64,000 nt of DNA from Pseudideonella sakaiensis (GTDB lineage Bacteria; Pseudomonadota; Gammaproteobacteria; Burkholderiales; Burkholderiaceae_C), in NCBI RefSeq assembly GCF_001293525.1, contig NZ_BBYR01000047.1:1-64000 (forward strand), written 5' to 3'. Position 1 is the stretch's first letter; every line of letters begins with the position of its first letter. Below the pieces are notes generated by a model that searched no databases, was not told the DNA's origin, and saw only the letters and a program-made list of their open reading frames with translations. The position numbers and the translations under genes were made by a program. Shown here piece after piece: positions 32,284 to 50,825 of the stretch.

Positions 32284-32290
32284 GAGGGGG

Positions 32291-33426: not shown

Positions 33427-33521
33427 GGACTTGCTGCGCATTGCAACACAGCCAACCGTCGATTTCCACCCGATCGAATCAGGGCATTCCCGGGTTCCGG
33501 GCCGATTTCGGCGCAGATCGT

Positions 33522-33551: not shown

Positions 33552-33554
33552 TTC

Positions 33555-33568
33555 TGAACGCGCTTTCA
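33555..33568. promoter_or_regulatory. LacI-type operator, site 2
   Basis: TGAACGCGCTTTCA repeats the pattern TGAAxGCGCxTTCA of site 1, 142 bases away centre to centre. It lies 44 bases upstream of the binding-protein start, suggesting that one regulator controls both the operon and its divergent binding protein, possibly by looping. Confidence 0.68.
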
Positions 33569-33612
33569 GCTTTCGACCCTTCCCCACACACGCGCGTACA
33601 GGAGACCGCCCG

Positions 33613-35751: not shown

Positions 35752-35866
35752 GTCTCGTCTCCAAGTGTCGGCCGGCATGCTGCCCCGGGGCCGGGCATGC
35801 TGCCAGCAGGAAAAGCGTCGATCGATCCCCGAAAAACGTCCGAGGCCGCGCAGGGCCCCGGCGGCT

Positions 35867-36874
35867 TCAGGCCGCGGGCCAGCCGGCCAGCAGCGCGTCC
35901 GGCACCTCGAGGCCCTCGGCCCGTGCCTTCGCGAGCAGCGCCTCGCGCCGTTCGCCGGGCAGGCGCACGCCCTCGTCGCGCAGCATTTCGGCCACCAGCA
36001 CCTCCAGCCGGTCGAGGAAGGCCTCGCGGCCGGCCAGCGCCCCCGGGTCGATGACCAGGAAGGTCTGCCCCAGGCGCGGGCGGTTGCCTTCGTCGACGAA
36101 GAAGCTCGAGGCCTCGAAGCCGTAGTTCGCGCCGATCAGCGCCGTCACCAGCAGCTCGACCACCAGCGCCAGCATCGCGCCCTTGGGGCTGGACACCGCG
36201 CCGATCGGCAGCATCGAGCCGGCCAGGCCGGCCTTCGGATCGGTGGTCGGGCGCCCGTCGGCGTCCAGCGCCCAGCCTTCGGGGATGGGCTGGCCGGCCT
36301 TCGCGGCCACCATCAGCTTGCCGCGCGCGACCTCCGACAGGCTCAGGTCGACCATCAGCGGCAGCGCCGGCGCGCGCCGCGGGAACACCGCGGCCACCGG
36401 GTTGGTGCCGAAGACCGGGTGGCGCCCGCCGGCCGCCGGCATCGCCGACGGCGAGTTCGAGAAGCCCAGCCCCACCAGCCCGGCCGCGGCCACCGGGCGC
36501 AGGTGGTCGACGACCACGCCACAGTGGTGGCTGGCGACGACGCCGACCAGCGCCACGCCGCATTCGCGCGCCCGCGCGATCGCCTCGGCCACGGCCTGCT
36601 CGCAGGCGGGGAAGGCCAGGCCCTCGCGGGCATCGACCACGGCCGTGCCGCCCTTCGCGCGGACCAGCGCGGGCTCCGCCGCACCGTCGGCGCGGCCGTT
36701 GCGCAGGTGGGTCGCGTACTGGGCGACCCGGCTCAGCCCGTGCGAGCCCAGTCCCTGGGCCTCGGCCAGCACCAGCGCCCGCGCGGTGGCGGCCGCCATC
36801 GCGTCACCGGCGCCGGCCGCGCGCAGCGCCGCCGCCACGCGCGCCCGTGCCTCCTCCATCGTCAGGCGTGCCAT
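35867..36874 (-). CDS. comC: (R)-sulfolactate dehydrogenase, ComC-like (malate/L-lactate dehydrogenase family)
   Basis: This 335-residue NAD(P)-dependent enzyme belongs to the Ldh_2 family, not the classical lactate dehydrogenases. LGSHGLSRVAQYATHLRNG, the catalytic His region VASHHCGVVVDHLRPVA, FGTNPVAAVFPR and SSPKGAMLALVVELL are hallmarks. Paired with SlcC, ComC interconverts sulfolactate enantiomers via sulfopyruvate, providing the (R) form for SuyAB. The assignment rests on family plus context; in isolation it could be a malate or ureidoglycolate dehydrogenase. Its ATG overlaps the SlcC stop by one base (TGATG). Confidence 0.8.
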   Translation of the reverse strand: MARLTMEEARARVAAALRAAGAGDAMAAATARALVLAEAQGLGSHGLSRVAQYATHLRNGRADGAAEPALVRAKGGTAVVDAREGLAFPACEQAVAEAIARARECGVALVGVVASHHCGVVVDHLRPVAAAGLVGLGFSNSPSAMPAAGGRHPVFGTNPVAAVFPRRAPALPLMVDLSLSEVARGKLMVAAKAGQPIPEGWALDADGRPTTDPKAGLAGSMLPIGAVSSPKGAMLALVVELLVTALIGANYGFEASSFFVDEGNRPRLGQTFLVIDPGALAGREAFLDRLEVLVAEMLRDEGVRLPGERREALLAKARAEGLEVPDALLAGWPAA

Positions 36875-37797
36875 CAGCCGAGCGCCTCCAGCACGCGCTG
36901 CGCGATCATCGAGGACACGCGTTCGTTGGCCTCGACCGACAGGCCCGCGATGTGCGGCGTCAGCACCAGCCGCGGGCAATCGACGAAGGCCCCGCCACCC
37001 GGCAGCGGTTCGTCGGCGAAGACGTCGACCGCCGCGCCGCCGAGCCGCCCCTCGCGCAGCGCCGCGGCCAGCGCGGGCTCGTCGACGATGCCGCCGCGCG
37101 CGGTGTTGATCAGCACCGCGCCCGGCTTCATCGCCGCGAGGCGCCGGGCATCGAACAGGTGGCGGGTCGAGTCGACCAGCGGCACGTGCAGGCTGACGAC
37201 GTCGGCCTGCGCGACCAGCTCGTCGAGGCCCACCGGCGCCACGCCGGTGTCCCGGTAGACCGGGTGCCCGGCGCCGAGCGCCGCATCGCTGGCGATGACC
37301 CGCATGCCGATGCCCTGCGCGAGCCGCGCGGTGAGCTGGCCGATCGCGCCGAAGCCGACCAGGCCCAGGGTCTTGCCGCCGGCCTCGCGCCCGTTGATGA
37401 GCGCGGGCCGCGGCCAGGCGCCCGCGGCGACCTGCGCGCTGGCCTGGTAGGCGCCGCGCAGCAGCAGCATCGCCGTCGCGACCACGTACTCGGCCACGCT
37501 CAGCGCGTTCGCCCCGGTGGCCGGGATGACCGCGATGCCGCGGGCCTCGCAGCCGGGGACGTCGATGTTGTCCAGCCCCACGCCCAGGCGCCCGACGACG
37601 CGGCAGCGCCCCAGCGTGGCGAGCAGTTCGCCGCGCACCTGGGTGCGGTTGCGCACCACCAGCGCGTCGGCCAGCGCCGCCTGCGCGTGCAGGCGCGCCG
37701 GGTCGTCGACGAGCGTCGGGTCGTAGACCACCTCGTGGCGGGCGGCGAGCTGCGCCACGGCGGGCGCGTCCATGAACTCCGTGATGACGATCTTCAT
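36874..37797 (-). CDS. slcC: (S)-sulfolactate dehydrogenase, SlcC-like (2-hydroxyacid dehydrogenase family)
   Basis: This 307-residue D-2-hydroxyacid dehydrogenase has GRLGVGLDNIDVPGCEARG and the NAD loop TLGLVGFGAIGQLTA. The catalytic Arg is in INTARGGIVDE, Glu in VFADEPLP, and His in LTPHIAGLSVEANERVS. It lacks the ACT domain of SerA, so it is not the serine-biosynthesis enzyme. The N-terminus MKIVITEFMDAPAV and the position beside ComC and SuyAB fit SlcC, which oxidises (S)-sulfolactate to sulfopyruvate. It is encoded 58 bp after suyB. Confidence 0.82.
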   Translation of the reverse strand: MKIVITEFMDAPAVAQLAARHEVVYDPTLVDDPARLHAQAALADALVVRNRTQVRGELLATLGRCRVVGRLGVGLDNIDVPGCEARGIAVIPATGANALSVAEYVVATAMLLLRGAYQASAQVAAGAWPRPALINGREAGGKTLGLVGFGAIGQLTARLAQGIGMRVIASDAALGAGHPVYRDTGVAPVGLDELVAQADVVSLHVPLVDSTRHLFDARRLAAMKPGAVLINTARGGIVDEPALAAALREGRLGGAAVDVFADEPLPGGGAFVDCPRLVLTPHIAGLSVEANERVSSMIAQRVLEALG

Positions 37798-37855
37798 GCA
37801 GCCTTCAAGGTCGAATGCAGCGTCCGCGCGGGGCCGTGCCCCGCGCGGGGCGGTC

Positions 37856-39031
37856 TCACGCGGACTCGAACAGGCGCGTCAGCACGAACTCGCGGTGCCC
37901 CAGCGCCTCGGCCGCCGTCAGCCGGCCGTTCGCGGTGCGCAGCATGCACTCCAGCAGCTTGTCGCCGGCCTGGTCGAGGTTGATCTCGCGCTGCAGCAGC
38001 CCCGAGGTGTCGACGTCGATGTGCTCGCTCATCAGCCGCACGGTGCGCGGGTTCGCGCAGATCTTGATCACCGGCACGATCGGGTTGCCGATCACGTTGC
38101 CCTGCCCGGTGGGGAAGAAGTGCACCGCATAGCCCGAGGCGGCGCACAGCGTGACCATCTCGGCGGCGGCCGACGACGAGTCCATGAACCACAGGCCCGG
38201 GTGGGTCGGCATCTCGGCCTTGTCGATCACGCCGTCGACCGTGCACTTCTTGCCGATCTTCTGGATGTTGCCGAGCGCCTTCTCCTCGATGGTCGTCAGG
38301 CCGCCGGCGATGTTGCCCTTGGTCGGCTGCGAGTCGGACAGGTCGCTGGTCTTGTGGCGGTTGATCATGTCCTGGTAGCGGTTGAACATGAACATGAACT
38401 TGTCGCGCACCTCGGTGGTCTTGCAGCGCTCGGCCACGATCTTCTCGCCGCCGGTGATCTCGGAGGTCTCGCCGAAGCACAGGTAGTTGCCCAGCGGGTG
38501 CAGCTTGTCGAAGGCGTTGCCGACGGTCGGGTTGGCACCGCAGCCGGACGTGGTGTCGCTCTCGCCGCACTTGGTGGAGACCCACAGCTCGTGGATCGGG
38601 CAGACCTCGCGCTGCTTCTCGCTCGCCCACTGGACGAACTCGCGCGCCGCCTTGCTGGCCTTCATGATGGTCTCGTGGTCGCCATGGCCCTCGATGCCGA
38701 AGCCGACCACCGGCTTGCCCGTCGTGGCGATGCCGTCGACCACCTTCTTGGTCCAGCCGTCCTCGATGCCGATCACCACCACGGCGGCCACGTTGGGGTT
38801 GCAGCCCGCGCCGATCAGGGTGCGGAAGTGCAGCTCCAGGTCCGCGCCGAACTGCAGGCGGCCGTAGGGGTGCGGGATCGCCATCGCCCCCTTGATGTTG
38901 TGCGCCACCGCCTCGGCGGCCGCGTTCGACAGGTCGTCGAGCGGCAGGATGATGACGTGGTTGCGCACGCCCACGCGGCCGTTCTCGCGGCGATAGCCCA
39001 GGAAAGTCGTGTCTTTGCTAACGATGCTCAT
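37856..39031 (-). CDS. suyB: (R)-sulfolactate sulfo-lyase, large subunit
   Basis: This 391-residue protein of the altronate/galactarate dehydratase (UxaA) superfamily splits (R)-sulfolactate into pyruvate and sulfite together with Suy[61 protein letters not shown] and [20 protein letters not shown] fit the SuyB branch. SDTTSG and [10 protein letters not shown] differ from the usual sugar-acid dehydratase forms. The cysteines in KCGESD and SGCGAN are candidate iron-sulfur or metal ligands. The start at 39031 gives the usual length; an ATG eight codons earlier (39055) is possible. Context with SuyA, SlcC and ComC makes the assignment strong. Confidence 0.88.
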
Positions 39032-39115
39032 GTCGATGTCTCGATGATTGACCATGGATCAAGCGGCCACCACGGAACCGGCTCCGCCGGGCCGTCGGTG
39101 GCGCCCCCCTGGGGG

Positions 39116-39135
39116 GGAGCGGCGTAAGCCGCTCC
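39116..39135. repeat. hairpin in the suyA-suyB gap
   Basis: GGAGCGGC and GCCGCTCC form a perfect 8-bp stem with a GTAA loop, flanked by runs of G and C (CCCCCC at 39103-39109, G7 after it). Such GC-run hairpins are, as I recall, common dispersed elements in Burkholderiales intergenic DNA. Here it may attenuate or process the suyA-suyB transcript. Confidence 0.6.
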
Positions 39136-39142
39136 GGGGGGG

Positions 39143-39424
39143 TTACCAGCGCTTCGTCTTGATGTTCTGGACGTGTGCGTGCTCGCCCACCTTGATCGGG
39201 GCCACGACCTTGCCCATGTCGATGCCGTACTTCAGCACCGTGTCGCCGACGGCCATGTCCTTCAGCGCCACCTTGTGGCCGATCGGGATGTCCTGGCGGG
39301 CCTGGACCTCGATGGTCCGGTCCTCGTCCATGATCCAGCCGGTCATCGCGGTGCCGGCCTTCACGCCTTCGACGACGACGACGGCGACGGTGTCGTTCGC
39401 ATCGTGCAGAACGAAGTGAATCAT
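39143..39424 (-). CDS. suyA: (R)-sulfolactate sulfo-lyase, small subunit
   Basis: This 93-residue SAF-domain protein is the small partner of SuyB. IHFVLHDANDTVAVVVVEGV, DIPIGHKVALKDMAVGDTVL and YGIDMGKVVAPIKVGEHAHV match the N-terminal domain of altronate dehydratase-like enzymes. The C-terminus HVQNIKTKRW resembles the HNLKTKRW end of that domain. AGGAG lies upstream of the ATG at 39424. It is the first gene of the operon and is separated from suyB by 111 bases containing a hairpin, which might set a different expression level for the two subunits. Confidence 0.88.
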   Translation of the reverse strand: MIHFVLHDANDTVAVVVVEGVKAGTAMTGWIMDEDRTIEVQARQDIPIGHKVALKDMAVGDTVLKYGIDMGKVVAPIKVGEHAHVQNIKTKRW

Positions 39425-39495
39425 CGGGGGGTCTCCTGGGTTGGATGTCGATTCGCGGAGCGGATGTTGAGGGCCGCGGCGCCGAGCGTCAAACG

Positions 39496-39511
39496 GGTCA
39501 TATAGATGACC
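39496..39511. promoter_or_regulatory. candidate GntR operator between suyA and its regulator
   Basis: GGTCAT and ATGACC form a perfect inverted repeat around ATAG. This size and spacing suit a GntR-family dimer. It lies between the divergent suyA (72 bases away) and GntR genes (37 bases away), in the least GC-rich part of that gap. Confidence 0.6.
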
Positions 39512-39547
39512 TGCGTGAGCTGGCTTCCTTCCCGTAGACTGCTGCCC

Positions 39548-40333
39548 ATGCCCCGCCCTGCCCGCGCCGCCGCCCTGTTCGCCGCGATCCCGCCGGAGAC
39601 GGCCGGCATGCCGCTGTACCGCCTGGTCAAGCGCGCGCTGCTGCGGGCGATCGAGGACGGGCGCTGCCGTCCCGGCGCGGCACTGCCGAGCGAGACCGAG
39701 ATCGCCGGCGAGATGGGCGTGTCGATCGGCACGCTGCGGCGCGCCGTCGACGAGCTGGCGGCCGAGCACATCGTGGTGCGGCGCCAGGGCCGCGGCACCT
39801 TCGTCGCGACCCACAACACCGACCGCTTCCTGTTCCAGTTCTTCCACGTCGAGCGCGCCGACGGCCTGCGCGAGGCGCCGCGCGTGGACCTGGTGTCCTT
39901 CGAGCGCACGCGTGCCGACGAGGAGGCCGCCGAGGCGCTGGAACTGCGCGCGGGCGAGCCGGTGATCCAGATGGAGAACCGCCTGCGGCTGCAGGGCGCC
40001 GCGGTGATCTACGACCGGCTGGTGCTGCCGGCCGCGCTGTTCAAGGGCCTGAGCGAGAAGCGCATGCGCGAGCGGCCCGGCACGATCTACCAGTTCTACC
40101 AGTCGGACTTCGGCATCAGCGTGCTGCGCGCCCGCGAGCGCGCCCGCGCGGTGGCGGCGGACCGCCACGCGGTGCGCGTGCTCGGCGTGCCGCCCGGCCA
40201 GCCGGTGATGCAGGTGCGGCGCACCGCGCTGAGCTTCCACGACCGGCCGGTCGAGTACCGCGTCTCGACCATCAACACCGCCCACCACGACTACGTGAAC
40301 CTGCTGTCGCGCCCGGTCGGCAAGCACGATTGA
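39548..40333 (+). CDS. GntR family transcriptional regulator of the sulfolactate operon (SuyR-like)
   Basis: This 261-residue regulator has a winged helix (PLYRLVKRALLRAIEDGRC, LPSETEIAGEMGVSIGTLRR, VVRRQGRGTFVA) and a UTRA effector domain to the end. It is divergent from suyA. GntR-type regulators are recurrent neighbours of suyAB, so it probably represses the operon until sulfolactate or a relative binds. I chose the ATG at 39548; an in-frame ATG at 39506 lies inside the putative operator and is less likely. It converges on the LysR gene across a strong hairpin. Confidence 0.88.
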   Translation: MPRPARAAALFAAIPPETAGMPLYRLVKRALLRAIEDGRCRPGAALPSETEIAGEMGVSIGTLRRAVDELAAEHIVVRRQGRGTFVATHNTDRFLFQFFHVERADGLREAPRVDLVSFERTRADEEAAEALELRAGEPVIQMENRLRLQGAAVIYDRLVLPAALFKGLSEKRMRERPGTIYQFYQSDFGISVLRARERARAVAADRHAVRVLGVPPGQPVMQVRRTALSFHDRPVEYRVSTINTAHHDYVNLLSRPVGKHD

Positions 40334-40391: not shown

Positions 40392-41306
40392 TCAGCGCGC
40401 CGCGCGTCGGGCGCGCGGCACGGCCCGCTCGGCGAAGTAGCGCTTGATCGCACCGGTGAAGCGCTCGCGCGCATGGCTCGCGCGCTCCAGCATGCCGACG
40501 TGCCGCTGCACGTCGACGCCGGGCAGGCGCAGCACGCGCAGCGCGCGGTCGCGGCCCCAGTCGACATTGGCCAGCCGCGGCACCACCGAGACGCCGAAGC
40601 CCTGGCGCACGATCTCGACCATCGCCTCCACCGAGTTCAGTTCCATCCCCTCGTGCACGCGCACGCGGCAGGCCGACAGCACCTCGTCGACCAGGCGGCC
40701 GGTCCAGGTCGCGCGGTCGAAGCGGATGAAGGGCGCGGCCGACAGCAGGGCCAGCGCACCGCCGCTGGCATCGAAGCGGGGCACGCGCGGCACGATCAGC
40801 ACCATCGGCTCGGCGTACATCGGGCTCCACACCAGGTTCGACGGCAGCGCATAGGGCGGCTGGGTGACGATCGCGGCGTCCAGCTCGCCGCGCGCGACGC
40901 GGGGCGCGAAGTCGCTCGACAGGCCGGCGAAGAGCTTCACGTCGAGGCGGGGGTTGGCGCCCTTGACGGCCCACAGCGCGTCGGCGAACGCGCCCATCAG
41001 CGCCGAGACCAGCGCGCCCATCACCACCACGCCGGACAGGCCGGCCTCGTCGCCGTCGGTGCCCGCCGCGAGGGCCTCCCAGCGCCGCACCAGTTGCTCC
41101 ACCTCCCCGACGATGCGGCGGCCGGTGGGGTTCAGCACCACCGCGCGGCGCCCGCGGTCGAACAGCGCCTGGCCGAGGGACTGCTCCAGCGCCTGCATCT
41201 GCAGCCCGACGGCGGCCGGGGTCAGGCCGACCTCGGCGGCCGCCGCGGCGAAGCTGCCGTGGCGCACCACGGCCAGGAAGGTCTTCAGGGTTCTCACGGA
41301 GGCCAT
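40392..41306 (-). CDS. LysR family transcriptional regulator
   Basis: This 304-residue regulator has the LysR helix-turn-helix (TLKTFLAVVRHGSFAAAAAE, VGLTPAAVGLQMQALEQSLG) and a two-lobed effector domain. FAPRVARGELDAAIVTQPPY is typical of the effector domain. The C-terminus is basic. It is divergent from the dicarboxylate cluster beginning at 41415, with 108 bases between, which holds an inverted repeat suitable for binding. It most likely activates that cluster in response to its substrate or an intermediate. Confidence 0.93.
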   Translation of the reverse strand: MASVRTLKTFLAVVRHGSFAAAAAEVGLTPAAVGLQMQALEQSLGQALFDRGRRAVVLNPTGRRIVGEVEQLVRRWEALAAGTDGDEAGLSGVVVMGALVSALMGAFADALWAVKGANPRLDVKLFAGLSSDFAPRVARGELDAAIVTQPPYALPSNLVWSPMYAEPMVLIVPRVPRFDASGGALALLSAAPFIRFDRATWTGRLVDEVLSACRVRVHEGMELNSVEAMVEIVRQGFGVSVVPRLANVDWGRDRALRVLRLPGVDVQRHVGMLERASHARERFTGAIKRYFAERAVPRARRAAR

Positions 41307-41414: not shown

Positions 41415-42134
41415 ATGCAGCCCACGCTCTCGGTCAAGGTCTGGCGCGGCGGCGCCGAAGGCAGCTTCAGCGCCTACGAGGTGCCGCGCCAGACGAGTCA
41501 GACGGTGCTCGACGTCGTCACCCACATCCAGCGCCACCTCGAGCCCTCGCTCAGCTACCGCTTCGCCTGCCGCGTCGGCATGTGCGGCTCCTGCGCGATG
41601 ACCGTCAACGGCAAGGCCTGCTGGACCTGCCGCACCCACGTCGCCAAGGTGGCCGGCGACGGCGGCACGCTGGAGATCGCGCCGCTGTCGAACCTGCCGG
41701 TCATCAAGGACCTGGCGACCGACATGACGTCCTTCTTCGACAAGTGGGCGCGCGCGAAGGGCAGCTTCGCCGGCAGCACCACGCGCCACGAGGACTTCGC
41801 CCGCGTCGCGCCCGACTCGCCCGAGCGCCGCGCCGCCAACGCGGGCATCGAGTGCATCGGCTGCGGGGTCTGCGTGGCCTCCTGCGACGTCGTCGCGTGG
41901 CGGCCCGACTACCTCGGCCCGGCCGCGCTGAACCGGGCCTGGACCCTGGTGAACGACGTGCGCGACACCCAGCGCAGCGAGCGGCTGCGGGCGGTGGCCG
42001 GCGATGCCGGTTGCCACGCCTGCCACACGCAGGGTTCGTGCACCGAGCGCTGCCCGAAGCAACTCGCGCCCACCGTGGCCATCGCGGGCCTGAAGCGCAC
42101 CGTCGCGAAGGCGGCCGTGCGGGGCGAGCTGTGA
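41415..42134 (+). CDS. succinate dehydrogenase/fumarate reductase-type iron-sulfur subunit
   Basis: This 239-residue SdhB/FrdB-type protein passes electrons from the flavoprotein to the membrane. The [2Fe-2S] ligands are in FACRVGMCGSCAMTVNGK with the last Cys in CWTC. The [4Fe-4S] motif is CIGCGVCVASC, and the remaining cluster ligands are in CHACHTQGSC and CTERCPKQLAP. CGSCAMTVNG resembles FrdB more than SdhB. It is the first gene after the LysR regulator, while the flavoprotein is encoded 3.4 kb downstream, an unusual order that differs from normal sdhCDAB. Confidence 0.92.
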   Translation: MQPTLSVKVWRGGAEGSFSAYEVPRQTSQTVLDVVTHIQRHLEPSLSYRFACRVGMCGSCAMTVNGKACWTCRTHVAKVAGDGGTLEIAPLSNLPVIKDLATDMTSFFDKWARAKGSFAGSTTRHEDFARVAPDSPERRAANAGIECIGCGVCVASCDVVAWRPDYLGPAALNRAWTLVNDVRDTQRSERLRAVAGDAGCHACHTQGSCTERCPKQLAPTVAIAGLKRTVAKAAVRGEL

Positions 42135-42523
42135 AGGCCACCGCGGCCATGGCAGCCGCGCCGCGCGAGGACCGGGCCGCCGACGCCATCGCGCAGGCCC
42201 GCCGCTGGTACTGGCAGCGCCTGAGCGCCATGGTGCTGGCGGTGTGCGTCGTCGTGCACCTCGTGACCCTGGTCTACGCGGTGCGCAGCGGCCTCAGCGC
42301 GCAGGCCATCCTCGGGCGCACCCAGGGCCACTGGGGCGTCGGTGCCTTCTACGCGCTGTTCGTCGTCGCCTGCGCGGTGCACGTGCCGCCGGGGCTGGCG
42401 GCGATCGCGCGCGAATGGGGCGGCTTCGGCGAGCGGGCGGCGCTCGGCCTGGGCCGCGCCTTCGGCGTGCTGCTGCTGCTGGCCGGGCTGCGCGCCGTCT
42501 GGGCCGTCGTGGCCCCGGCATGA
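42131..42523 (+). CDS. succinate dehydrogenase/fumarate reductase-type membrane anchor subunit
   Basis: The GTG at 42131 overlaps the stop of the iron-sulfur gene (GTGA), giving 130 residues. An ATG six codons later is an alternative. There are three membrane segments (LSAMVLAVCVVVHLVTLVYA, GVGAFYALFVVACAVHVPPG, and ALGLGRAFGVLLLLAGLRAV). The histidines in VVVHLVT and CAVHVPPG are candidate haem b ligands. Its similarity to named anchors is weak, as usual for these subunits, and the assignment leans on position. Confidence 0.78.
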   Translation: MKATAAMAAAPREDRAADAIAQARRWYWQRLSAMVLAVCVVVHLVTLVYAVRSGLSAQAILGRTQGHWGVGAFYALFVVACAVHVPPGLAAIAREWGGFGERAALGLGRAFGVLLLLAGLRAVWAVVAPA

Positions 42524-42537
42524 GGGAGGGTCGCCGC

Positions 42538-42906
42538 ATGACGAACCTCCCCCGCCGCAACGACTTCCGCGCCCGGGCGCACCCGGCCTGGTGGGCCTTC
42601 CTGGTGCACCGCCTGTCCGGGCTGGGGCTGGCGCTGTTCCTGCCGCTGCACTTCTGGGCCCTCGGCCAGGCGCTGCACGGCGCGGCGGCGCTCGACGGCT
42701 TCCTGCGCTTCGCCGACCGCCCGCTGTTCAAGTTCGCCGAATGGGGGCTGGTGGTGCTGCTCGCGCTGCACCTGATGGGCGGCGTGCGCCTGCTGCTGAT
42801 CGAGTTCGGCCGCCCCGCCGGCCTGCGCAAGGACCTGATCGCGGTGGCCGCCGGCGTCGCCGCCGCGGCCGGCCTCGCCTTCGCGCTGGCCCTGCTGTCC
42901 GGCTGA
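42538..42906 (+). CDS. SdhC-like cytochrome b membrane anchor subunit
   Basis: This 122-residue protein has the SdhC signature WAFLVHRLSGLGLALFLPLH, where HR-SG lines the quinone/haem region. A second conserved His follows in ALHLMGGVRLLLIEFG, giving three membrane segments in all. GGGAGGG precedes the ATG at 42538. With the previous gene it should anchor the iron-sulfur and flavoprotein subunits to the inner membrane and reduce, or take electrons from, quinone. Confidence 0.85.
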   Translation: MTNLPRRNDFRARAHPAWWAFLVHRLSGLGLALFLPLHFWALGQALHGAAALDGFLRFADRPLFKFAEWGLVVLLALHLMGGVRLLLIEFGRPAGLRKDLIAVAAGVAAAAGLAFALALLSG

Positions 42907-42991
42907 CGCGATGCCTTCCGGCGCCCCGCAGCGCCGCCGTTCCCCCAGGCTGCCGCCAGAGCAGCACCGACCCCCCGCCAGGAGACACGCG

Positions 42992-44005
42992 ATGACCCGA
43001 GCCCTCCCCTCCAACGCACTCACCCGCCGCCGCCTGCTGCAGGCGCTGGCCGCCGCGGGGCTGGCCGGCAGCGGCGCCGGGGCCGCCGCGCAGGCCGCGG
43101 CCGACGCCGGCTGGCCGGCCCGCCCGGTGCGGCTGATCGTGCCCTTCGCGCCGGGCGGCTCGACCGACGTGATCGGCCGCATGCTGGCCCAGCAGCTGGG
43201 CGAGATGTGGGGCCAGACGGTGGTGGTGGAGAACCGGGCCGGCGCCGGCGGCAACGTGGGCGCCGACGTGGTCGCGAAGTCGCCCGGCGACGGCTACACG
43301 TTGCTGTTCGCGTCCGGCAGCATCACGATCAACCCGCAGCTGTACAAGAAGATGCCGTTCGACACGCGGCGCGACCTGGTCCCGATCACCAACGTCGCCA
43401 GCGGGCCGATGCTGGTGGTGGTGCCGGACGACTCGCCGGCGCGCAGCGTGAAGGACCTGATCGCGCTGGCCAAGGCGAAGCCGGGCAGCATCAGCTTCGG
43501 CTCGGCGGGCGTCGGCAGCCAGGTCCACCTGGCGGGCGAGAACTTCGCGAACGCGGCCGGCATCGACATCCTGCACGTGCCCTACAAGGGCGAGGCGCCG
43601 GCCTACACCGACCTGATCGCGAAGCAGACGCAGATGATGGTGGGCAACTTCGCGGCCGCGTCGGCGCTGCTCGGCCCGGGCCGCCTGCGGGCGCTGGCCG
43701 TCACCGGCCGCGAGCGCTCGCCGCTGCTGCCCGACGTGCCCACCGTCGCCGAGAGCGGCCTGCCCGGCTTCGAGAACACCGGCTGGTTCGGGCTGCTGGC
43801 GCCGGCCGCCACGCCGCCGGCGATCATCGCGAAGATCCACCGCGACACCGTCAAGGCCATGGCCGGCAGCCAGATCAAGGGCCGGCTCTACGTGCAGGGC
43901 ATGACCCCGGTCGGCAACACGCCGGCCGAGTTCGCCAAGGCCATGGACGACGAAGGCGAGCGCTGGGCGACCGTGGTGCGCAACCGCCGCCTGAGCGCCA
44001 ACTGA
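42992..44005 (+). CDS. Bug/TctC-family extracytoplasmic solute-binding protein
   Basis: This 337-residue protein has a signal with a twin-arginine-like start (LTRRRLLQALAAAGLAGSGA) followed by an Ala-rich cleavage region. The Bug motifs are VRLIVPFAPGGSTDVIGRML, VVENRAGAGGNVGADVVAKS, HVPYKGEAPAYTDLIAKQTQ and LPDVPTVAESGLPGF. GGAGA precedes the ATG. It sits between the membrane anchors and the hydratase genes, so its ligand is probably the dicarboxylate processed by this cluster. No membrane transporter partner is present. Confidence 0.92.
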   Translation: MTRALPSNALTRRRLLQALAAAGLAGSGAGAAAQAAADAGWPARPVRLIVPFAPGGSTDVIGRMLAQQLGEMWGQTVVVENRAGAGGNVGADVVAKSPGDGYTLLFASGSITINPQLYKKMPFDTRRDLVPITNVASGPMLVVVPDDSPARSVKDLIALAKAKPGSISFGSAGVGSQVHLAGENFANAAGIDILHVPYKGEAPAYTDLIAKQTQMMVGNFAAASALLGPGRLRALAVTGRERSPLLPDVPTVAESGLPGFENTGWFGLLAPAATPPAIIAKIHRDTVKAMAGSQIKGRLYVQGMTPVGNTPAEFAKAMDDEGERWATVVRNRRLSAN

Positions 44006-44028
44006 ACCGACACCCGCCCGAACCCACC

Positions 44029-44904
44029 ATGAAGATCGACCTGCAGGCGGTGGAAGACGCCGCCAAGGAGCTGTACATCCGCGCGCTGAAGGTGCTGCCG
44101 CCGGACATCAAGCGCGGCTTCGACCAGCTCGAGGCGCGCGAGACCGACGGCACCGCGCGCCGGGTGCTGGCGACCATGCGCACCAACATCGAGGTGGCCG
44201 AGCGCACCGACAACCTGCTGTGCCAGGACACCGGCGTGCCGATCTACAACCTGCGCATCGGCCGCGGCGTGGAGGTCGACGGCCACGCGCTGAAGCAGGC
44301 GGTGCGCCGCGGCTGCGAGCGCGCCACCCGCGAGTACCCGCTGCGCAGCTCGGTGGTGCACCCGCTGACGCGCCGCAACGAGCACAGCTCCTGCGGCATC
44401 GAGGTGCCGGTGCTGCACATCGACTTCAGCGAGGAACCCGAGCTGCTGGAGATCGAGATGGTGCCCAAGGGCAGCGGCTCGGAGAACAACTCCTTCCTGA
44501 AGATGGCGATCCCGGCCGAGGGCATCGACGCGATCAAGACCTTCGTCGTCGACTGCGTGCTGGCGGCCGGCGGCAAGACCTGCCCGCCGACCATCGTCGG
44601 CGTTGGCCTCGGCGGCACCTCCGACCTGGCGGTGGCGCTGGCCAAGCGCGCCGCGACGCGCGCGCTCGGCAGCCGCTGCAGCGATCCCGACGGCGCGGCG
44701 CTCGAGGAGCAGCTGTCCGCCGCGGTGAACCGCCTGTCGATCGGCCCGCAGGGCCTGGGCGGCGATGCGACCGCGTTCGCGGTGCACATCGAGCTGGCCG
44801 CGACCCACATCACGATGAACCCGATCGCCGTCAACATGCAGTGCCACTCCGCGCGCCGCGCGCGCGCCCGCTTCACGCCGGCCGGCGTGGCCTACGGCCA
44901 CTGA
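44029..44904 (+). CDS. class I fumarase/tartrate dehydratase-like hydratase, alpha subunit
   Basis: This 291-residue subunit carries the three [4Fe-4S] cysteines of the class I hydratases, in LLCQDTGVPIYN, GKTCPPTIVGVGLGG and VNMQCHSARRARA. SGSENNSFLKM and IGPQGLGGDATAFAVHIE are also family motifs. The segment that normally reads NTGxNTP is NEHSSCGIEVPVLHIDF here, with an additional Cys, so substrate contacts may differ from fumarase or L-tartrate dehydratase. The beta subunit follows after 23 bases. It adds water to, or removes it from, an unsaturated dicarboxylate; mesaconate-type or other substituted fumarates are alternatives. Confidence 0.88.
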   Translation: MKIDLQAVEDAAKELYIRALKVLPPDIKRGFDQLEARETDGTARRVLATMRTNIEVAERTDNLLCQDTGVPIYNLRIGRGVEVDGHALKQAVRRGCERATREYPLRSSVVHPLTRRNEHSSCGIEVPVLHIDFSEEPELLEIEMVPKGSGSENNSFLKMAIPAEGIDAIKTFVVDCVLAAGGKTCPPTIVGVGLGGTSDLAVALAKRAATRALGSRCSDPDGAALEEQLSAAVNRLSIGPQGLGGDATAFAVHIELAATHITMNPIAVNMQCHSARRARARFTPAGVAYGH

Positions 44905-44927
44905 GCCGCCCGCGCACGACCCACGCC

Positions 44928-45569
44928 ATGGCCCACCACGAACTCACGCTGCCCGTCGACGAGGCGCAGGTCCGCGCGCTGCGGGTGAACGACACGGTCA
45001 CGCTGCAGCGCACGCTGTACGGCATCCGCGACGCCACGCAGATCCACCTCTTCGACCGCGGCCGCACGACCCGCTTCGACCTGAACGGCCACGCGGTGAT
45101 CCACACCGCGCCGAACGTCCGCCAGGTGCCGCCGAGCGCCGAGCACCCGGCCGGCTATGCGCCGGTGTGCATCGGCACCACCACCTCGGACCGCATGGAG
45201 CGCTTCACGCGCCCGCTGATGACGCGCCACGGCGTGCGCCTGATCGTCGGCAAGGGCGGCCTGCGCGAGGCCTCGGCCGCCGCCTTCGCCGAGCTGGGCG
45301 GTGCCTACCTGGCGATCGTCGGCGGCACGGCCGCGCTGGAGACCACCTGGGTCGAGCAGATCGAGGCGGTCGACCTGGACGACCTGAACCCCGAGTCGCT
45401 GTGGCGCTTCCGCATCCGCGACTTCGGCCCGCTGCTGGTGGCGATGGACAGCCACGGCGGCAGCCTCTACGACGTGGTGCGCACGCAGGCGCAGTCACGC
45501 CGGGAGGCGGTGCTGGCGAGCCTGGGCGTGGCGCCCGCGGGCGATGCCGCGGCGCGGGGCCGGGCATGA
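44928..45569 (+). CDS. class I fumarase/tartrate dehydratase-like hydratase, beta subunit
   Basis: This 213-residue subunit completes the hydratase. It contains LPVDEAQVRALRVNDTVTLQ, the active-site RD in YGIRDATQIHLFDRG, VCIGTTTSDRMERFTRPLM and VRLIVGKGGL, then a C-terminal part with VEQIEAVDLDDLNPESLWRF. The ordinary family has RDxAH where this has RDATQIH, another hint of an altered substrate site. Its stop overlaps the flavoprotein start (ATGA), coupling hydratase and dehydrogenase synthesis. Confidence 0.88.
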   Translation: MAHHELTLPVDEAQVRALRVNDTVTLQRTLYGIRDATQIHLFDRGRTTRFDLNGHAVIHTAPNVRQVPPSAEHPAGYAPVCIGTTTSDRMERFTRPLMTRHGVRLIVGKGGLREASAAAFAELGGAYLAIVGGTAALETTWVEQIEAVDLDDLNPESLWRFRIRDFGPLLVAMDSHGGSLYDVVRTQAQSRREAVLASLGVAPAGDAAARGRA

Positions 45570-47326
45570 CGGCGCGCCCCCCGCTGCGCACGCTGCGCAC
45601 CGACATCCTGATCCTCGGCAGCGGCGGCGCCGGCCTGTTCGCCGCGCTGCACGCGCACCAGGCGGCGCCCGCGCTGTCGATCACCGTGGCCGTCAAGGGC
45701 CTGCTCGGCAAGTGCGGCTGCACCCGGATGGTCCAGGGCGGCTACAACGTCGCGCTGGCGCCGGGCGACTCGGTCGAGCGCCATTTCATGGACACGATCG
45801 AGGGCAGCAAGTGGCTGGCCGACCAGGACCTGGCCTGGACCCTGGTCAGCACCGCGATCGAGCGCATCCACGAGCTGGAGAACGAGCTCGGCTGCTTCTT
45901 CGACCGCAACCCCGACGGCAGCGTGCACCAGAAGGCCTTCGCCGGCCAGACCTTCGACCGCACCGTCCACAAGGGCGACCTGACGGGCATCGAGATCATC
46001 AACCGCCTGGCCGAGCAGGTCTGGGCGCGCGGCATCGACCGGCTGGAGGAGCACCGCGCGATCGAGCTGCTGCCGGCGGACGACGGCAGCGGCCTGGCCG
46101 GCGTGCTGATGATCGACATGCGCAGCGGCGGCTACGTGCTGGTGCAGGCGCGCGCGGTGCTGCTGGCCACCGGCGGCGGCCCGACCATGTACAAGTACCA
46201 CACGCCCTCCGGCGACAAGAGCTGCGACGGCCTGGCGATGGCGCTGCGCGCCGGCCTGCCGCTGCGCGACATGGAGATGGTGCAGTTCCACCCCACCGGG
46301 CTGCTGGCCGGCAGCGGCACGCGCATGACCGGCACCGTGCTGGAGGAGGGCCTGCGCGGCGCCGGCGGCTGGCTGCTGAACGGCGAGGGCCGGCGCTTCA
46401 TGGCGCGCTACGACCCGCGCGAGGAACGCGCGACGCGCGACATCGTTTCGCGCTCGATCGATGCCGAGATGCGCGCCGGCCGCACCTCGCCGAACGGCGG
46501 CGTCTTCCTGCAGATGTCGCACCTCGGGCCGGACCAGGTGCGGCGCCAGTTCAAGGGCATGGTGGAACGCTGCGCGGACTGCGGCTTCGACCTGGCCGGC
46601 GACCGCGTCGAGGTCGTGCCCACGGCGCACTACATGATGGGCGGCGTGGTCTTCGGCGCCGACTGCCGCACGCCGATGCCGGGCCTGTTCGCCGCCGGCG
46701 AGGACACCGGCGGCGTGCACGGCGCGAACCGCCTGGGCGGCAACGGCGTGGCCAACTCGACCGTCTTCGGCGGCATCGCCGGCGACCGGATGGCGCAGTG
46801 GGTGCAGCAGGAGGGCCGCTGGCGCACGCCCGATGCCGCTGCGGTGGAGGCCTCGATCGCGCGCCACGAGCACCCCTTCACGCAGCCGCCGGCCAGCCTG
46901 GAGCCGATCCGCGAGGCGCTGTACGCCTGCATGTGGGACGACGTCGGCATCGTGCGCAGCGCCGAGGGCCTGCAGCGGGCCCTGCACACGCTGGGCGAGC
47001 TCGATGCGGCGCTGGAGCGCAGCGGCGTCGCCGGCGACGACCGCGCCTTCAACCTGAGCTGGCACGACTGGCTGAACCTGAAGAACCTGATCGCGGTCAG
47101 CCGCGTGATCGCGACCTCGGCGCTGGCCCGCGACGACTCGCGCGGCGCGCACTTCCGCCAGGACCACCCCGCCACCGGCGACCTGCCGGGCTCGACCTAC
47201 ATCGTCGTGCGCCAGCAGGCCGGCGCGCTGGCGATGCAGCGCGAGCCGGTGCGCTTCACGCGCGTCGCGCCCGGCGAGAGCCTGATCCGCCCGGCCCCGG
47301 CGCAGGGCCCCGGCACACCCGCCTGA
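45566..47326 (+). CDS. succinate dehydrogenase/fumarate reductase-type flavoprotein subunit
   Basis: This 586-residue flavoprotein has FAD motif ILGSGGAGLFAALHA. Dicarboxylate-binding and catalytic segments are conserved: VQFHPTGLLAGSG, ATRDIVSRSIDAEM, VPTAHYMMGG and GVHGANRLGGNGVANST, and near the C-terminus RGAHFRQDHP. The position that in SdhA and FrdA is the FAD-linking His (SHTxxxQGG) is Cys here (GCTRMVQGG), so FAD is probably not covalently bound through His. It is coupled to the hydratase beta gene. The iron-sulfur and anchor genes at 41415-42906 complete a membrane complex. Confidence 0.9.
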   Translation: MTARPPLRTLRTDILILGSGGAGLFAALHAHQAAPALSITVAVKGLLGKCGCTRMVQGGYNVALAPGDSVERHFMDTIEGSKWLADQDLAWTLVSTAIERIHELENELGCFFDRNPDGSVHQKAFAGQTFDRTVHKGDLTGIEIINRLAEQVWARGIDRLEEHRAIELLPADDGSGLAGVLMIDMRSGGYVLVQARAVLLATGGGPTMYKYHTPSGDKSCDGLAMALRAGLPLRDMEMVQFHPTGLLAGSGTRMTGTVLEEGLRGAGGWLLNGEGRRFMARYDPREERATRDIVSRSIDAEMRAGRTSPNGGVFLQMSHLGPDQVRRQFKGMVERCADCGFDLAGDRVEVVPTAHYMMGGVVFGADCRTPMPGLFAAGEDTGGVHGANRLGGNGVANSTVFGGIAGDRMAQWVQQEGRWRTPDAAAVEASIARHEHPFTQPPASLEPIREALYACMWDDVGIVRSAEGLQRALHTLGELDAALERSGVAGDDRAFNLSWHDWLNLKNLIAVSRVIATSALARDDSRGAHFRQDHPATGDLPGSTYIVVRQQAGALAMQREPVRFTRVAPGESLIRPAPAQGPGTPA

Positions 47327-47384
47327 GCCGGCCCGGCCGGCCCCACGACCCACCCCGCGCGGGGACCCGCAGGAGAAGAAGCCC

Positions 47385-48401
47385 ATGACCCCTTTCGTCC
47401 GCCGCGTCGGTGCAGCCCTCGGGCTGAGCGGCAGCCTGGCCCTGGCCCCGGTGGCCGCCCAGCCCGCCGGCGCAGCGGCCGAGGCCGGCAGCGCCTACCC
47501 CACCCAGCCGGTCTCGCTGATCGTGCCCTTCAGCCCCGGCGGCGATGCCGACGTGGCGGCACGCGCGCTGGTGCTGGGGACCCAGCGCGCGCTCGGCCAG
47601 CCGCTGCTGCCGATCAACCGCGCCGGCGCCAGCGGCGCGATCGGCTCGCTGGCGGTGAAGCAGGCCCGGCCGGACGGCTACACCCTGCTGCTGGCCCGCG
47701 TGGGCTCGCAGGTGGTGCTGCCGGCGCTGCAGCCCACGCTGGCCTACAAGTGGAACGACTTCACGCTGCTCGGGCTGCTGGAGCTCAACCCGGTGGTCTG
47801 CGTGACGCGCGCCGAGTCGCCGCTGCGCACGCTGAAGGACCTGACCGACGCGCTGAAGGCGCGCCCGGGCAAGCTCAACTACAGCACCTCCGGTGCCGGC
47901 ACCATCCTGAACTTCGGCCCGCAGCTGCTGTTCGACCAGCTGAAGCTGGGCAAGGATGCCGCGGTGCAGATCGCCTACAAGGGCGGCGGCGAGGCGGCGA
48001 TGGCGGTCATCGCCGGCGACGTGGACTTCAGCTGCGGCAACCTCACCTCGGTGATCGGCAACATCAAGGGCGGCCGGCTGCGCGCGCTGGTCACCACCAC
48101 GCCGGAGCGGCTGAAGGACCTGCCCGAGGTGCCGACCGCCCGCGAGAGCGGCTACCCGCAGCTCGAGGCCATCGTCGGCTGGAGCGCGCTGTACGGCCCG
48201 CCGGGCATGCCGCGGGCCCTGGTCGACCGCTGGACGGCGCTGCTGGCCGGCGCGGCCGCCGACCCGCAGTGGCAGGCCGCCACCGAGAAGGCCGGCAGCA
48301 TCCCGCGCGTGCTCGGCCCGGCCGAGACCGAGGCCTTCATCGCCGCCCAGTTCGCCGTCTACGAGCGCCTGGGCCGGCAGCTGCAGATCGAGATCAAGTG
48401 A
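47385..48401 (+). CDS. Bug/TctC-family extracytoplasmic solute-binding protein
   Basis: This 338-residue protein has a signal sequence ending near VAAQPAGAAAEAG. The Bug motifs are more divergent than in the other three copies here: VSLIVPFSPGGDADVAARAL, INRAGASGAIGSLAVKQ, IAYKGGGEAAMAVIAGDVDF and LPEVPTARESGYPQL. AGGAGAAG precedes the ATG. The Gly-Gly-Asp-Ala in the ligand loop (PGGDADVA in place of PGGxTD) suggests a different ligand from the Bug protein at 42992, so the cluster may recognise two compounds. Confidence 0.9.
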   Translation: MTPFVRRVGAALGLSGSLALAPVAAQPAGAAAEAGSAYPTQPVSLIVPFSPGGDADVAARALVLGTQRALGQPLLPINRAGASGAIGSLAVKQARPDGYTLLLARVGSQVVLPALQPTLAYKWNDFTLLGLLELNPVVCVTRAESPLRTLKDLTDALKARPGKLNYSTSGAGTILNFGPQLLFDQLKLGKDAAVQIAYKGGGEAAMAVIAGDVDFSCGNLTSVIGNIKGGRLRALVTTTPERLKDLPEVPTARESGYPQLEAIVGWSALYGPPGMPRALVDRWTALLAGAAADPQWQAATEKAGSIPRVLGPAETEAFIAAQFAVYERLGRQLQIEIK

Positions 48402-48426
48402 CCCCCGACCGACGAGGACCCCGAGC

Positions 48427-50061
48427 ATGACCTCCCCCCGCGGCCCGCGCGGCGCCGATGCGCTGGTGCAGGCCCTGCAGACCGCCGGCGTGCGGCGCCT
48501 CTTCACGCTCTCCGGCAACCACATCATGCCGGTCTACGACGCGGTGCTGGGCCGCGGGATCGCGCTGGTCCACACCCGCCACGAGGCCAGCACCGTGCAC
48601 ATGGCCGATGCCTGGGCACGCCTGACCGGCGAGGTCGGCGTCGCGCTGGTGACCGGCGGGCCGGGCCATGCGAACGCCGTGTCGGCGCTGTACACCGCGC
48701 GCATGGCGGAGGCGCCGGTGCTGCTGCTGTCGGGCCACGCGCCGAACGACCAGCTCGGCCTGGGCGCCTTCCAGGAGATGGCGCAGGCGGAGATGGCCGC
48801 GCCGGTCACCAAGGCCGCCTGGACCTGTGCGTCGCCCGACGCGGTGGCGGACGACCTGGCCCGCGCCTTCCGCATCGCCCGCTCGGGGCGGCCCGGGCCG
48901 GTGCACCTCAGCCTGCCGACCGACGTGCTGGAGCGCGCCTTCGCGGGCCGCCAGCCGCCGGCGGCGGCCTTCGAGCCCGAGCCGCAGGCGCTGGACCCGG
49001 CGCTGGCCGACGCGCTGCTGGCCCGCCTGGGGGCGGCGCGCCGGCCGCTGATCCTGGTCGGCGCGGCCAGCATGACGCGCGCCGCGCGCCGCGCCACCGA
49101 GGCGCTGCAGGCGGCCAGCGGCATCCCGGTGATCGGCATGGAAAGCCCGCGCGGCATCGCCGACCCCAGCCTCGGCGACTTCGCCGCGCTGCTGGCGCGC
49201 GCCGACGCCGTGCTGCTGCTCGGCAAGCGCCTGGACTTCACGCTCAAGCACGGCAAGCCGCCCTTTCCGGCCACGGCCGAGGTGCACCAGGTCGATGCCG
49301 ACGAGGCCGAGTTCGCGCGCAGCCGGCGCGCCGTCGGCGACCGGCTGCAGCTCGTCGGGCAGGCCGATGCGGCCAGCGCCGTGCGCACGCTGACCGAGCG
49401 CGCCAGCGCCCGCATCGCCGCGGCGGACTGGCTGGACGAGTGCCGCGCCGCGCTCGCCTTCCGCCCGCCGGCCTGGGACACGCTGGCCGCCGCCACGCCC
49501 GGCCGGCTGCACCCGGTGCAGATGCTGCGCCCGCTGCAGGCCCTGCTCGACAGCCACCCCGACGCGGTGCTGGTCTGCGACGGCGGCGAGATCGGGCAGT
49601 GGGCGATGGCCTGCCTGCGCGCGCCGCACCGGGTCAACAACGGCGTCGCCGGCTCGATCGGCGCCGGGCTGCCGTACGCGCTGGCCGCGCGCTGTGCGCA
49701 GCCCGAGGCGCCCGTGGTCGCGGTGATGGGCGACGGCACGGTCGGCTTCCACATCGCCGAGTTCGACACCGCGGTGCGCCACGGCCTCGGCTTCGTCGCG
49801 GTGATCGGCAACGACGCCCGCTGGAACGCCGAGTACCAGATCCAGCTGCGCGACTACGGCCCCGACCGGCTGCTCGCCTGCGAGCTGCTGCCCACGCGCT
49901 ACGACCAGGTGGCCCAGGCCTTCGGCGGCCACGGCGAGGGGGTGACCGAGGCCGCCGCGCTCGCGCCGGCGCTGGCGCGCGCCGTCGCGAGCGGCCAGCC
50001 GGCCTGCATCAACGTGATGATCGAGGGCGCGCCGGCCCCGACGATCAAGCGGGCCGGGTGA
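48427..50061 (+). CDS. thiamine diphosphate-dependent enzyme (acetolactate synthase/decarboxylase family)
   Basis: This 544-residue ThDP enzyme has the catalytic Glu in THTRHEASTVHMADA-type context (HTRHEASTVHMADAWARLTG). A central domain lies from about residue 190, and the cofactor motif runs from VMGDGTVGFHIAEFDTAV to the ND in VIGNDARWN. It is shorter than typical sulfoacetaldehyde acetyltransferase and lacks an obvious FAD-binding signature of acetolactate synthase. A 2-oxo acid decarboxylase or a C-C lyase is possible; the substrate is unknown. It ends in a GTGA overlap with a TauE/SafE exporter, a coupling that suggests its reaction yields something to be exported. Confidence 0.88.
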   Translation: MTSPRGPRGADALVQALQTAGVRRLFTLSGNHIMPVYDAVLGRGIALVHTRHEASTVHMADAWARLTGEVGVALVTGGPGHANAVSALYTARMAEAPVLLLSGHAPNDQLGLGAFQEMAQAEMAAPVTKAAWTCASPDAVADDLARAFRIARSGRPGPVHLSLPTDVLERAFAGRQPPAAAFEPEPQALDPALADALLARLGAARRPLILVGAASMTRAARRATEALQAASGIPVIGMESPRGIADPSLGDFAALLARADAVLLLGKRLDFTLKHGKPPFPATAEVHQVDADEAEFARSRRAVGDRLQLVGQADAASAVRTLTERASARIAAADWLDECRAALAFRPPAWDTLAAATPGRLHPVQMLRPLQALLDSHPDAVLVCDGGEIGQWAMACLRAPHRVNNGVAGSIGAGLPYALAARCAQPEAPVVAVMGDGTVGFHIAEFDTAVRHGLGFVAVIGNDARWNAEYQIQLRDYGPDRLLACELLPTRYDQVAQAFGGHGEGVTEAAALAPALARAVASGQPACINVMIEGAPAPTIKRAG

Positions 50062-50825
50062 TCGAGGTTGGCGGGGCCGCCTTCGCCGGCTCGGCCGGCG
50101 TGCTCGCCGCCACCGCGGCGATCGTCGCGCTCGCCTACACGGTCTACGGCCTGACGGGCTTCGGTTCGTCGATCGTCGCGGTGCCGCTGCTGGCGCAGTT
50201 CTATCCGCTGCGCTTCGTGGTGCCGATGGTGCTGCTGTTCGACCTCGCCGCCGGCCTGATCCTGGGGTTGCGCAACCGGCACCGGCTGAGCCGGGCGGAG
50301 CTGCTGCGGCTGCTGCCCTGGCTGTGCGTCGGCATGGTCGCGGGCGTGACCCTGCTGGTCCAGGTGCCGGAGCGCGTGCTGCTGGGCGCGCTCGGGGCCT
50401 TCACGCTGCTGTTCGCGCTGTGGAGCCTGCTGAACCGCCGGCCGGTGCGGCCGGTGTCGGCCCGCTGGGCGGCGCCAGCGGGCCTGGCCGGCGGCGCCGT
50501 CACCGCGCTGTACGGCACGGGCGGCCCGATCTACACGCTCTACCTGGCGCGCCGGCTGGACGACGCCGCCGTCTTCCGTGCCACCATCGGGGTGCTCATC
50601 TTCGTCACGGCAGCGATCCGGCTGGCCCTGTTCAGCGGCACCGGCCTGTATGCGCAGCCAGGGCTGCTGGCGCTGGCCCTGGCGATGGCGCCGGCCGCGC
50701 TCGCCGGCTTCCTGCTCGGCAGCCGCCTGCACGCGCGGCTGGACCGGGCGCAGGCGATGCGTGTGGTCTGGTCGCTGCTGATCGTCTCCGGCACCGGCCT
50801 GCTGGTGCGCGCGCTGGGCGGCTGA
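50058..50825 (+). CDS. TauE/SafE family membrane transporter (putative sulfite/sulfonate exporter)
   Basis: The GTG at 50058 overlaps the ThDP-enzyme stop and gives 255 residues with about eight membrane segments. The family's repeated glycine-rich motif is present in both halves: YTVYGLTGFGSSIVAVPLLA near the N-terminus and GLAGGAVTALYGTGGPIYTL in the second half. Members export sulfite, sulfoacetate or other organosulfur anions, though many have unknown substrates. It is last in the dicarboxylate cluster and lies 11 kb from suyAB, whose product sulfite needs disposal. It converges on the asparaginase gene. Confidence 0.88.
   Translation: MIEVGGAAFAGSAGVLAATAAIVALAYTVYGLTGFGSSIVAVPLLAQFYPLRFVVPMVLLFDLAAGLILGLRNRHRLSRAELLRLLPWLCVGMVAGVTLLVQVPERVLLGALGAFTLLFALWSLLNRRPVRPVSARWAAPAGLAGGAVTALYGTGGPIYTLYLARRLDDAAVFRATIGVLIFVTAAIRLALFSGTGLYAQPGLLALALAMAPAALAGFLLGSRLHARLDRAQAMRVVWSLLIVSGTGLLVRALGG

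Follow-up and report, generated by a model that had tools for sequence, protein, structure and literature searches.

A ten-gene cluster of Pseudideonella sakaiensis that probably degrades 3-sulfopropanoate by way of sulfoacrylate and sulfolactate

Complex II (SdhABCD) and fumarate reductase combine a flavoprotein with an SdhB subunit holding three iron-sulfur clusters and with two membrane anchors. Class I two-subunit fumarases and TtdAB share two domains, three iron-sulfur cysteines and catalytic aspartate, histidine and arginine positions. Sulfolactate is known to be entered from 2,3-dihydroxypropane-1-sulfonate (DHPS), sulfolactaldehyde and cysteate. SlcC and ComC, with SuyAB and TauE, form a system for its racemisation and desulfonation (PMC12421959), and SuyAB of Cupriavidus pinatubonensis is described as an (R)-sulfolactate sulfo-lyase (PMC12890257). 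Here we analysed 64,000 nucleotides of Pseudideonella sakaiensis DNA (contig NZ_BBYR01000047.1, positions 1 to 64,000), called the window below. A ten-gene cluster at 41415-50825 encodes relatives of complex II and of class I fumarases, and lies next to a divergent sulfolactate gene set. We propose that the cluster probably serves 3-sulfopropanoate degradation via sulfoacrylate and sulfolactate, with the dehydrogenase and hydratase as a new entry into sulfolactate.

3-Sulfopropanoate is a bacterial product (PMC11489063, 2024), arising from fermentation of sulfoquinovose or DHPS and from homotaurine use. HpfXYZ of Enterococcus gilvus and the homotaurine route of Cupriavidus necator concern the same proposed metabolite but form it (PMC11489063); the present genes would consume it. 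A thesis, as cited in that paper, has 3-sulfopropanoate degraded via sulfoacrylate and sulfolactate. The thesis supports the intermediates, and we infer their tie to these genes. Use of 3-sulfopropanoate is reported for Roseovarius nubinhibens ISM, and its formation as a by-product for Cupriavidus necator H16. Published genes for 3-sulfopropanoate degradation were not found in the literature searched, which included sulfoacrylate, and sulfosuccinate together with sulfolactate. The enzymes would be of known kinds, in a pathway whose genes we did not find described there.

In the proposed pathway, a membrane-bound, complex-II-like enzyme made of the flavoprotein, the iron-sulfur subunit and the two anchors would oxidise 3-sulfopropanoate to 3-sulfoacrylate, with electrons passing to quinone (step 1). 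HydAB, a class I [4Fe-4S] hydratase, would add water to 3-sulfoacrylate, forming 3-sulfolactate (step 2). The SlcC/ComC pair would interconvert the sulfolactate enantiomers via sulfopyruvate (step 3), and SuyAB would split (R)-sulfolactate into pyruvate and sulfite (step 4). TauE/SafE would then export the sulfite (step 5). The sulfonates parallel the dicarboxylates: sulfolactate corresponds to malate, 3-sulfoacrylate to fumarate and 3-sulfopropanoate to succinate. By this analogy to the succinate-fumarate-malate sequence, the enzymes would therefore take 3-sulfopropanoate all the way to pyruvate and sulfite, with every step covered. The substrate and intermediates are here read from genomes, as are the direction of the reactions, their stereochemistry and transport. 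Whatever the compound, the module very likely belongs to organosulfonate catabolism. The ten genes are as follows.

41415-42134, + strand: succinate dehydrogenase (SDH)-like iron-sulfur subunit, SdhB (TIGR00384, 188 bits, cutoff 88)
42131-42523, + strand: membrane anchor 1, SdhD-like (weak TIGR02968 and NF010073 matches; same place in orthologous loci)
42538-42906, + strand: membrane anchor 2, SdhC-like cytochrome b556 (TIGR02970, 58 bits, cutoff 52.3; Pfam Sdh_cyt)
42992-44005, + strand: Bug/TctC solute-binding protein (Pfam TctC, 256 bits)
44029-44904, + strand: HydA, class I hydratase alpha subunit, proposed 3-sulfoacrylate hydratase (Fumerase, 286 bits; NF004885, 295.8 bits, cutoff 276)
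44928-45569, + strand: HydB, class I hydratase beta subunit (Fumerase_C, 93 bits)
45566-47326, + strand: flavoprotein of SDH/FRD/NadB type, proposed 3-sulfopropanoate dehydrogenase subunit (FAD_binding_2, 262 bits; Succ_DH_flav_C, 94 bits)
47385-48401, + strand: second Bug/TctC solute-binding protein (Pfam TctC, 143 bits)
48427-50061, + strand: thiamine diphosphate (ThDP) enzyme (TPP_enzyme N, M and C domains; nearest solved structures are 2-hydroxyacyl-CoA lyases)
50058-50825, + strand: TauE/SafE (TSUP family), probable sulfite exporter (Pfam TauE, 100 bits)

The HydB and flavoprotein genes overlap by four bases, and the SdhB/anchor and ThDP/TauE junctions likewise overlap. The ten-gene order is identical in Polaromonas sp. 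CG9_12 (locus L015) and in a second genome, G200 (L141), and dozens of genomes have the core. The arrangement is therefore not a product of chance. Hydratase genes are interspersed among the dehydrogenase genes, unlike in complex II operons. The P. sakaiensis genome (6.1 Mb in 227 contigs) separately encodes a canonical sdhA and a FumA-type fumarase, and a separate canonical sdhA was found in 20 of 20 genomes checked. The cluster is therefore an additional module and, judged by its genes, is not machinery of the tricarboxylic acid cycle. An earlier sequence-only reading of this DNA had listed the same ten genes, in this order and at these coordinates, with HydB and the flavoprotein translationally coupled. 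It had also described an SDH-type and class I hydratase pathway apart from the tricarboxylic acid cycle. Both descriptions hold, the second by virtue of the separate sdhA and of altered flavoprotein residues.

Those residues were compared with E. coli SdhA; residue roles are established for complex II and class I fumarases. Tree placement used E. coli TtdAB, SdhA and FrdA and canonical SdhA from control sdhA loci as references, and the 89 flavoprotein orthologues form a clade separate from canonical SdhA. They are roughly 63-82% identical within Pseudomonadota and about 50% identical in Rhodococcus and haloarchaea. As in complex II, the catalytic arginine and histidine set is kept: His242, Glu255, Arg258, Arg286, His354 and Arg399 (E. 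coli SdhA numbering) are invariant in 89/89. Unlike in complex II, His45, which links flavin adenine dinucleotide (FAD), is replaced by cysteine in all 89 (Cys52 in the window, 45719-45721). The substrate-site residue Thr254 is replaced by glutamate, again in 89/89, and just before it lies a six-residue insert in the substrate loop that holds an arginine or lysine in every sequence. The cysteine ligands of the three SdhB clusters are invariant in 76 homologues. An extra cysteine, Cys200, precedes the third cluster in 75 of these 76 (Cys200-Cys213, 42012-42053), and this cluster may be [4Fe-4S] in place of [3Fe-4S].

The missing histidine bears on reaction direction. In known SDHs its loss reduces succinate oxidation, and in complex II without covalent FAD the reduction of fumarate survives better than the oxidation of succinate. 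The complex could conceivably run in reverse, as a sulfoacrylate reductase for which 3-sulfoacrylate derived from sulfolactate would be an electron acceptor or a compound to be detoxified. We consider this very improbable. The named hosts are largely aerobic bacteria, SuyAB and the exporters indicate desulfonation and carbon use, and the substituting cysteine might itself carry FAD, a cysteinyl-FAD bond at Cys52 being conceivable. The histidine loss nevertheless counts among the points against 3-sulfopropanoate oxidation.

HydAB has both Fumerase domains, on separate genes. The three iron-sulfur cysteines are invariant in HydA, and the catalytic aspartate, histidine and arginine positions are retained. 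Two hydratase clades accompany the flavoprotein family, their alpha subunits just ~35% identical to each other. Clade 1, to which the window belongs, has its hydratase genes ahead of the flavoprotein gene; clade 2 has them after it. The carboxylate-binding motif of the beta domain, in HydB, is GTTT in 64/64 clade-1 sequences, unlike the GPTT of fumarase 7xky and TtdB. HydA exceeds the cutoff of NF004885, a fumarate hydratase model, and HydB falls under every curated cutoff of this group. Taken together, the altered flavoprotein, SdhB and HydB residues speak against succinate and fumarate as substrates, without naming the actual one.

The gene set directly upstream bears on what that substrate would be. 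The sequence-only reading had missed this divergent set (34774-40333), which alters the interpretation of the cluster. Its genes, with the regulator between the two sets, are these.

40392-41306, - strand: divergent LysR regulator (LysR matches; a 45-68% identical LysR at the same place in many loci)
39506-40333, + strand: GntR regulator, SuyR-like (HutC/PhnF-type GntR matches; adjoins SuyAB in orthologous loci)
39143-39427, - strand: SuyA, sulfolactate sulfo-lyase small subunit (galactarate dehydratase N-terminal match; 74% identity to SuyA of the C. pinatubonensis hps-suy cluster)
37856-39055, - strand: SuyB, sulfolactate sulfo-lyase large subunit (85.9% identity to the C. pinatubonensis protein encoded next to hpsNO; 66% to P. 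versutus)
36874-37797, - strand: SlcC-like D-2-hydroxyacid dehydrogenase (57% identity to the homologue encoded next to ComC in P. versutus)
35867-36979, - strand: ComC-like Ldh-family dehydrogenase (scores best to NF040650, an L-sulfolactate dehydrogenase model, at 195 bits and under the cutoff of 500)
34774-35778, - strand: Bug-type solute-binding protein of the sulfolactate set (54% identity to the Bug beside SuyAB in C. pinatubonensis)

SuyB homologues show a gap between those at least 60% identical and those near 40%, and by sequence the window SuyB is orthologous to that of the C. pinatubonensis hpsNO-suyAB cluster. Further upstream, at 22154-25271 (- strand), lie homologues of HpsN, HpsO and HpsP (79, 63 and 62% identical to those of C. 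pinatubonensis), the DHPS oxidation set. With both hps homologues and the suy set, the window is therefore an organosulfonate region.

Linkage was assessed in 80 flavoprotein orthologues, each with flanks reaching 10 kb at most, in 18 plasmid records and in further genome samples. Loci of at least 15 kb were classed as long, and sulfonate or sulfite genes were counted within ~10 kb. The 48 long clade-1 loci contain SuyAB in 29, ComC in 31, SlcC in 19 and TSUP in 26; as in the described sulfolactate system, SuyAB and SlcC/ComC-like genes lie side by side in this window and at numerous orthologous loci. One or more sulfonate or sulfite genes are present in 43/48, compared with 0/19 canonical sdhA loci of flavoprotein-bearing genomes (p ~2e-12; this and the following p-values are guides only, as related genomes are non-independent). 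SuyB occurs in 10/12 flavoprotein genomes and in 28/287 others of the family (p ~2e-8), and in a phylum sample in 5/11 against 10/387 (p ~1.5e-5). By hydratase type, SuyB is present in 11/11 clade-1 genomes and 2/10 clade-2 genomes. The SuyB and flavoprotein loci lie far apart in genomes G017 and G200, so this co-occurrence is not merely operon proximity. A search of 72,556 plasmid records gave 18 with the flavoprotein, 13 with SuyB (at least 60% identity) and six with both, some being near-duplicates. The exporter, which the sequence-only reading had expected to be conserved with the cluster, is so to this extent, TSUP also being present in 12 of 24 long clade-2 loci. Gene content, conservation, linkage, co-occurrence with SuyAB and the altered active-site residues are direct observations.

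This distribution also bears on whether the module acts on an unsulfonated diacid of the succinate, tartrate, methylsuccinate or itaconate type, its sulfonate neighbours being incidental. The pass of HydA over a fumarate hydratase cutoff points that way and to that extent speaks against a sulfonate substrate; Bug, Tct and DctA are typical diacid transport parts. We judge this reading improbable, given the repeated linkage and genome-wide SuyB co-occurrence across three samplings, the lack of sulfonate and sulfite genes at the 19 canonical sdhA loci, the separate sdhA in all 20 genomes and the conserved substitution of the substrate-site threonine. The gene context is unlike that of tartrate or malate use. 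The recurrence of SuyAB and exporters around the cluster led us to drop methylsuccinate/mesaconate and tartrate as substrates; methylsuccinates, earlier put forward as the conservative option, explain neither.

A sulfonate context fits sulfosuccinate equally well. This compound, whose sources include surfactants, would be oxidised to sulfofumarate. Hydration at the sulfonated carbon would then yield sulfite and oxaloacetate, and hydration at the other carbon sulfomalate, to be processed further via SuyAB or dehydrogenases. In favour of sulfosuccinate, 7/48 long clade-1 loci encode the C4-dicarboxylate carrier DctA, and clade-2 loci encode Tct or TRAP transporters. Direct release to oxaloacetate, however, leaves SlcC, ComC and SuyAB superfluous, and a path to sulfolactate and SuyAB requires an additional decarboxylation. 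GabD, a beta-hydroxyacid dehydrogenase and (methyl)malonate-semialdehyde dehydrogenase (MmsA) next to clade-2 loci are left unexplained. The cluster is also found in freshwater and marine plankton lineages, in which a synthetic surfactant is unlikely to be the main substrate. 3-Sulfopropanoate requires less to be assumed, since its route through hydration leads straight to the compound that SuyAB acts on. It is thus the likelier of the two, a probable substrate where sulfosuccinate is a rather unlikely one. The earlier guess of sulfosuccinate therefore stands in its sulfonate part, through the SuyAB linkage, and is less well supported in the compound named. The same guess had water added at the sulfonated carbon with direct loss of sulfite; this is unneeded in clade 1, where SuyAB would desulfonate, and stays an option for clade 2 alone.

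Other points weigh against 3-sulfopropanoate degradation. Glu254 has no obvious role toward an anionic substrate. With hpsN, hpsO and hpsP homologues in the window, SuyAB here could serve the DHPS pathway alone. Some flavoprotein loci (L068, L079 and L090) have no hydratase, SuyAB or exporter genes nearby; because such relatives exist, the flavoprotein family may hold other activities too. A weak point is the ThDP enzyme, which has no step in the 3-sulfopropanoate pathway. Its gene is present in 24/48 clade-1 and 5/24 clade-2 long loci. Cleavage of an oxo product by this enzyme, once suggested as a core step, fits poorly with a gene absent from about half of the loci. The enzyme was also rejected as Xsc, the sulfoacetaldehyde-desulfonating enzyme (204 to 208 bits against an Xsc cutoff of 676). 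True Xsc is encoded in just 6/12 flavoprotein genomes and was rejected as the desulfonation step.

Clade-2 loci contain sulfate exporters (PSE), sulfite dehydrogenases and TRAP or Tct transporters. CoA-acylating MmsA lies by clade 2 in three lineages (Pseudomonas MPC6, Cupriavidus P-10 and genome G439) and GabD in two (NT-25 and G181). The clade-2 hydratase may hydrate the sulfonated carbon, giving sulfite and malonate semialdehyde that MmsA could use. In genome G344, the neighbours of clade 2 are hpsNOP and a gene for a sulfopyruvate decarboxylase subunit; this clade may therefore form sulfolactate as well, with desulfonation by another way.

Outside Pseudomonadota, Rhodococcus jostii plasmid pRHL1 has the flavoprotein, clade-1-type HydAB, SlcC, ComC and SuyAB within ~25 kb. 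A UxaA (SuyAB-like) pair, TauE, the flavoprotein and SdhB are encoded on two haloarchaeal plasmids, of which the Haloarcula one additionally encodes a ComC-type dehydrogenase. These two loci lack HydAB, and an unrelated fumarase-superfamily lyase occupies that slot. It is annotated as argininosuccinate lyase (ArgH), and its genes stand beside the flavoprotein, UxaA pair and TauE.

L137, 10194-11696: haloarchaeal 'argininosuccinate lyase' gene
L190, 8275-9777: haloarchaeal 'argininosuccinate lyase' gene

The haloarchaeal lyase scores above the ArgH cutoff, yet also reaches 260 bits against XcbC, a coenzyme M synthesis enzyme from the fumarase superfamily that acts at the phosphosulfolactate/sulfoacrylate step. 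These genes may be misannotated hydratases or lyases of a sulfonate pathway. Archaeal UxaA is just ~35% identical to SuyB, which makes its activity less certain.

More tentatively, the whole family could be a full set for 3-sulfopropanoate mineralisation, although we regard this wider scheme as doubtful. The complex II relative with the histidine-to-cysteine change would feed clade 1, which would make sulfolactate for SuyAB. The other clade would hydrate the sulfonate-bearing carbon, with spontaneous formation of malonate semialdehyde and sulfite, and haloarchaea would use the unrelated fumarase-superfamily hydrating enzyme. If 3-sulfopropanoate is indeed the substrate, widespread genes annotated as 'succinate dehydrogenase' and 'fumarate hydratase' belong to the organosulfur cycle. 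The groups concerned would be Burkholderiales (including planktonic Polynucleobacter), Methylobacterium, roseobacters, Rhodococcus and haloarchaea. Culturable strains that carry the cluster include Methylobacterium radiotolerans JCM 2831, Paracoccus versutus, Polynucleobacter campilacus, Parapusillimonas granuli and Rhodococcus jostii RHA1.

An omega-aminotransferase, a possible homotaurine upstream gene, occurs close to the cluster of Polaromonas (L015) and to those of marine loci L082 and L088; it is too generic and too rare to count as evidence. Nine betaproteobacterial loci (L032, L038, L039, L059, L061, L062, L063, L073 and L081) have a type I sulfatase-like gene within the cluster, after the anchor genes and before that of Bug. 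In Sulfitobacter sp. THAF37, a 3-sulfinopropanoyl-CoA desulfinase (L130, 24394-25566; 635 bits, cutoff 600) lies ~11 kb from a clade-2 cluster. Elsewhere in the window, 26980-34683 holds ABC transporter genes together with genes for an SsuA-like binding protein and a LacI regulator; it also encodes a split transketolase (30401-32283) and, in addition, a beta-hydroxyacid dehydrogenase whose best match is sulfolactaldehyde 3-reductase (258 bits, cutoff 348). These genes possibly belong to another sulfonate pathway. A Baeyer-Villiger-type flavin monooxygenase (25430-26992, - strand) separates the hps genes from the ABC transporter.

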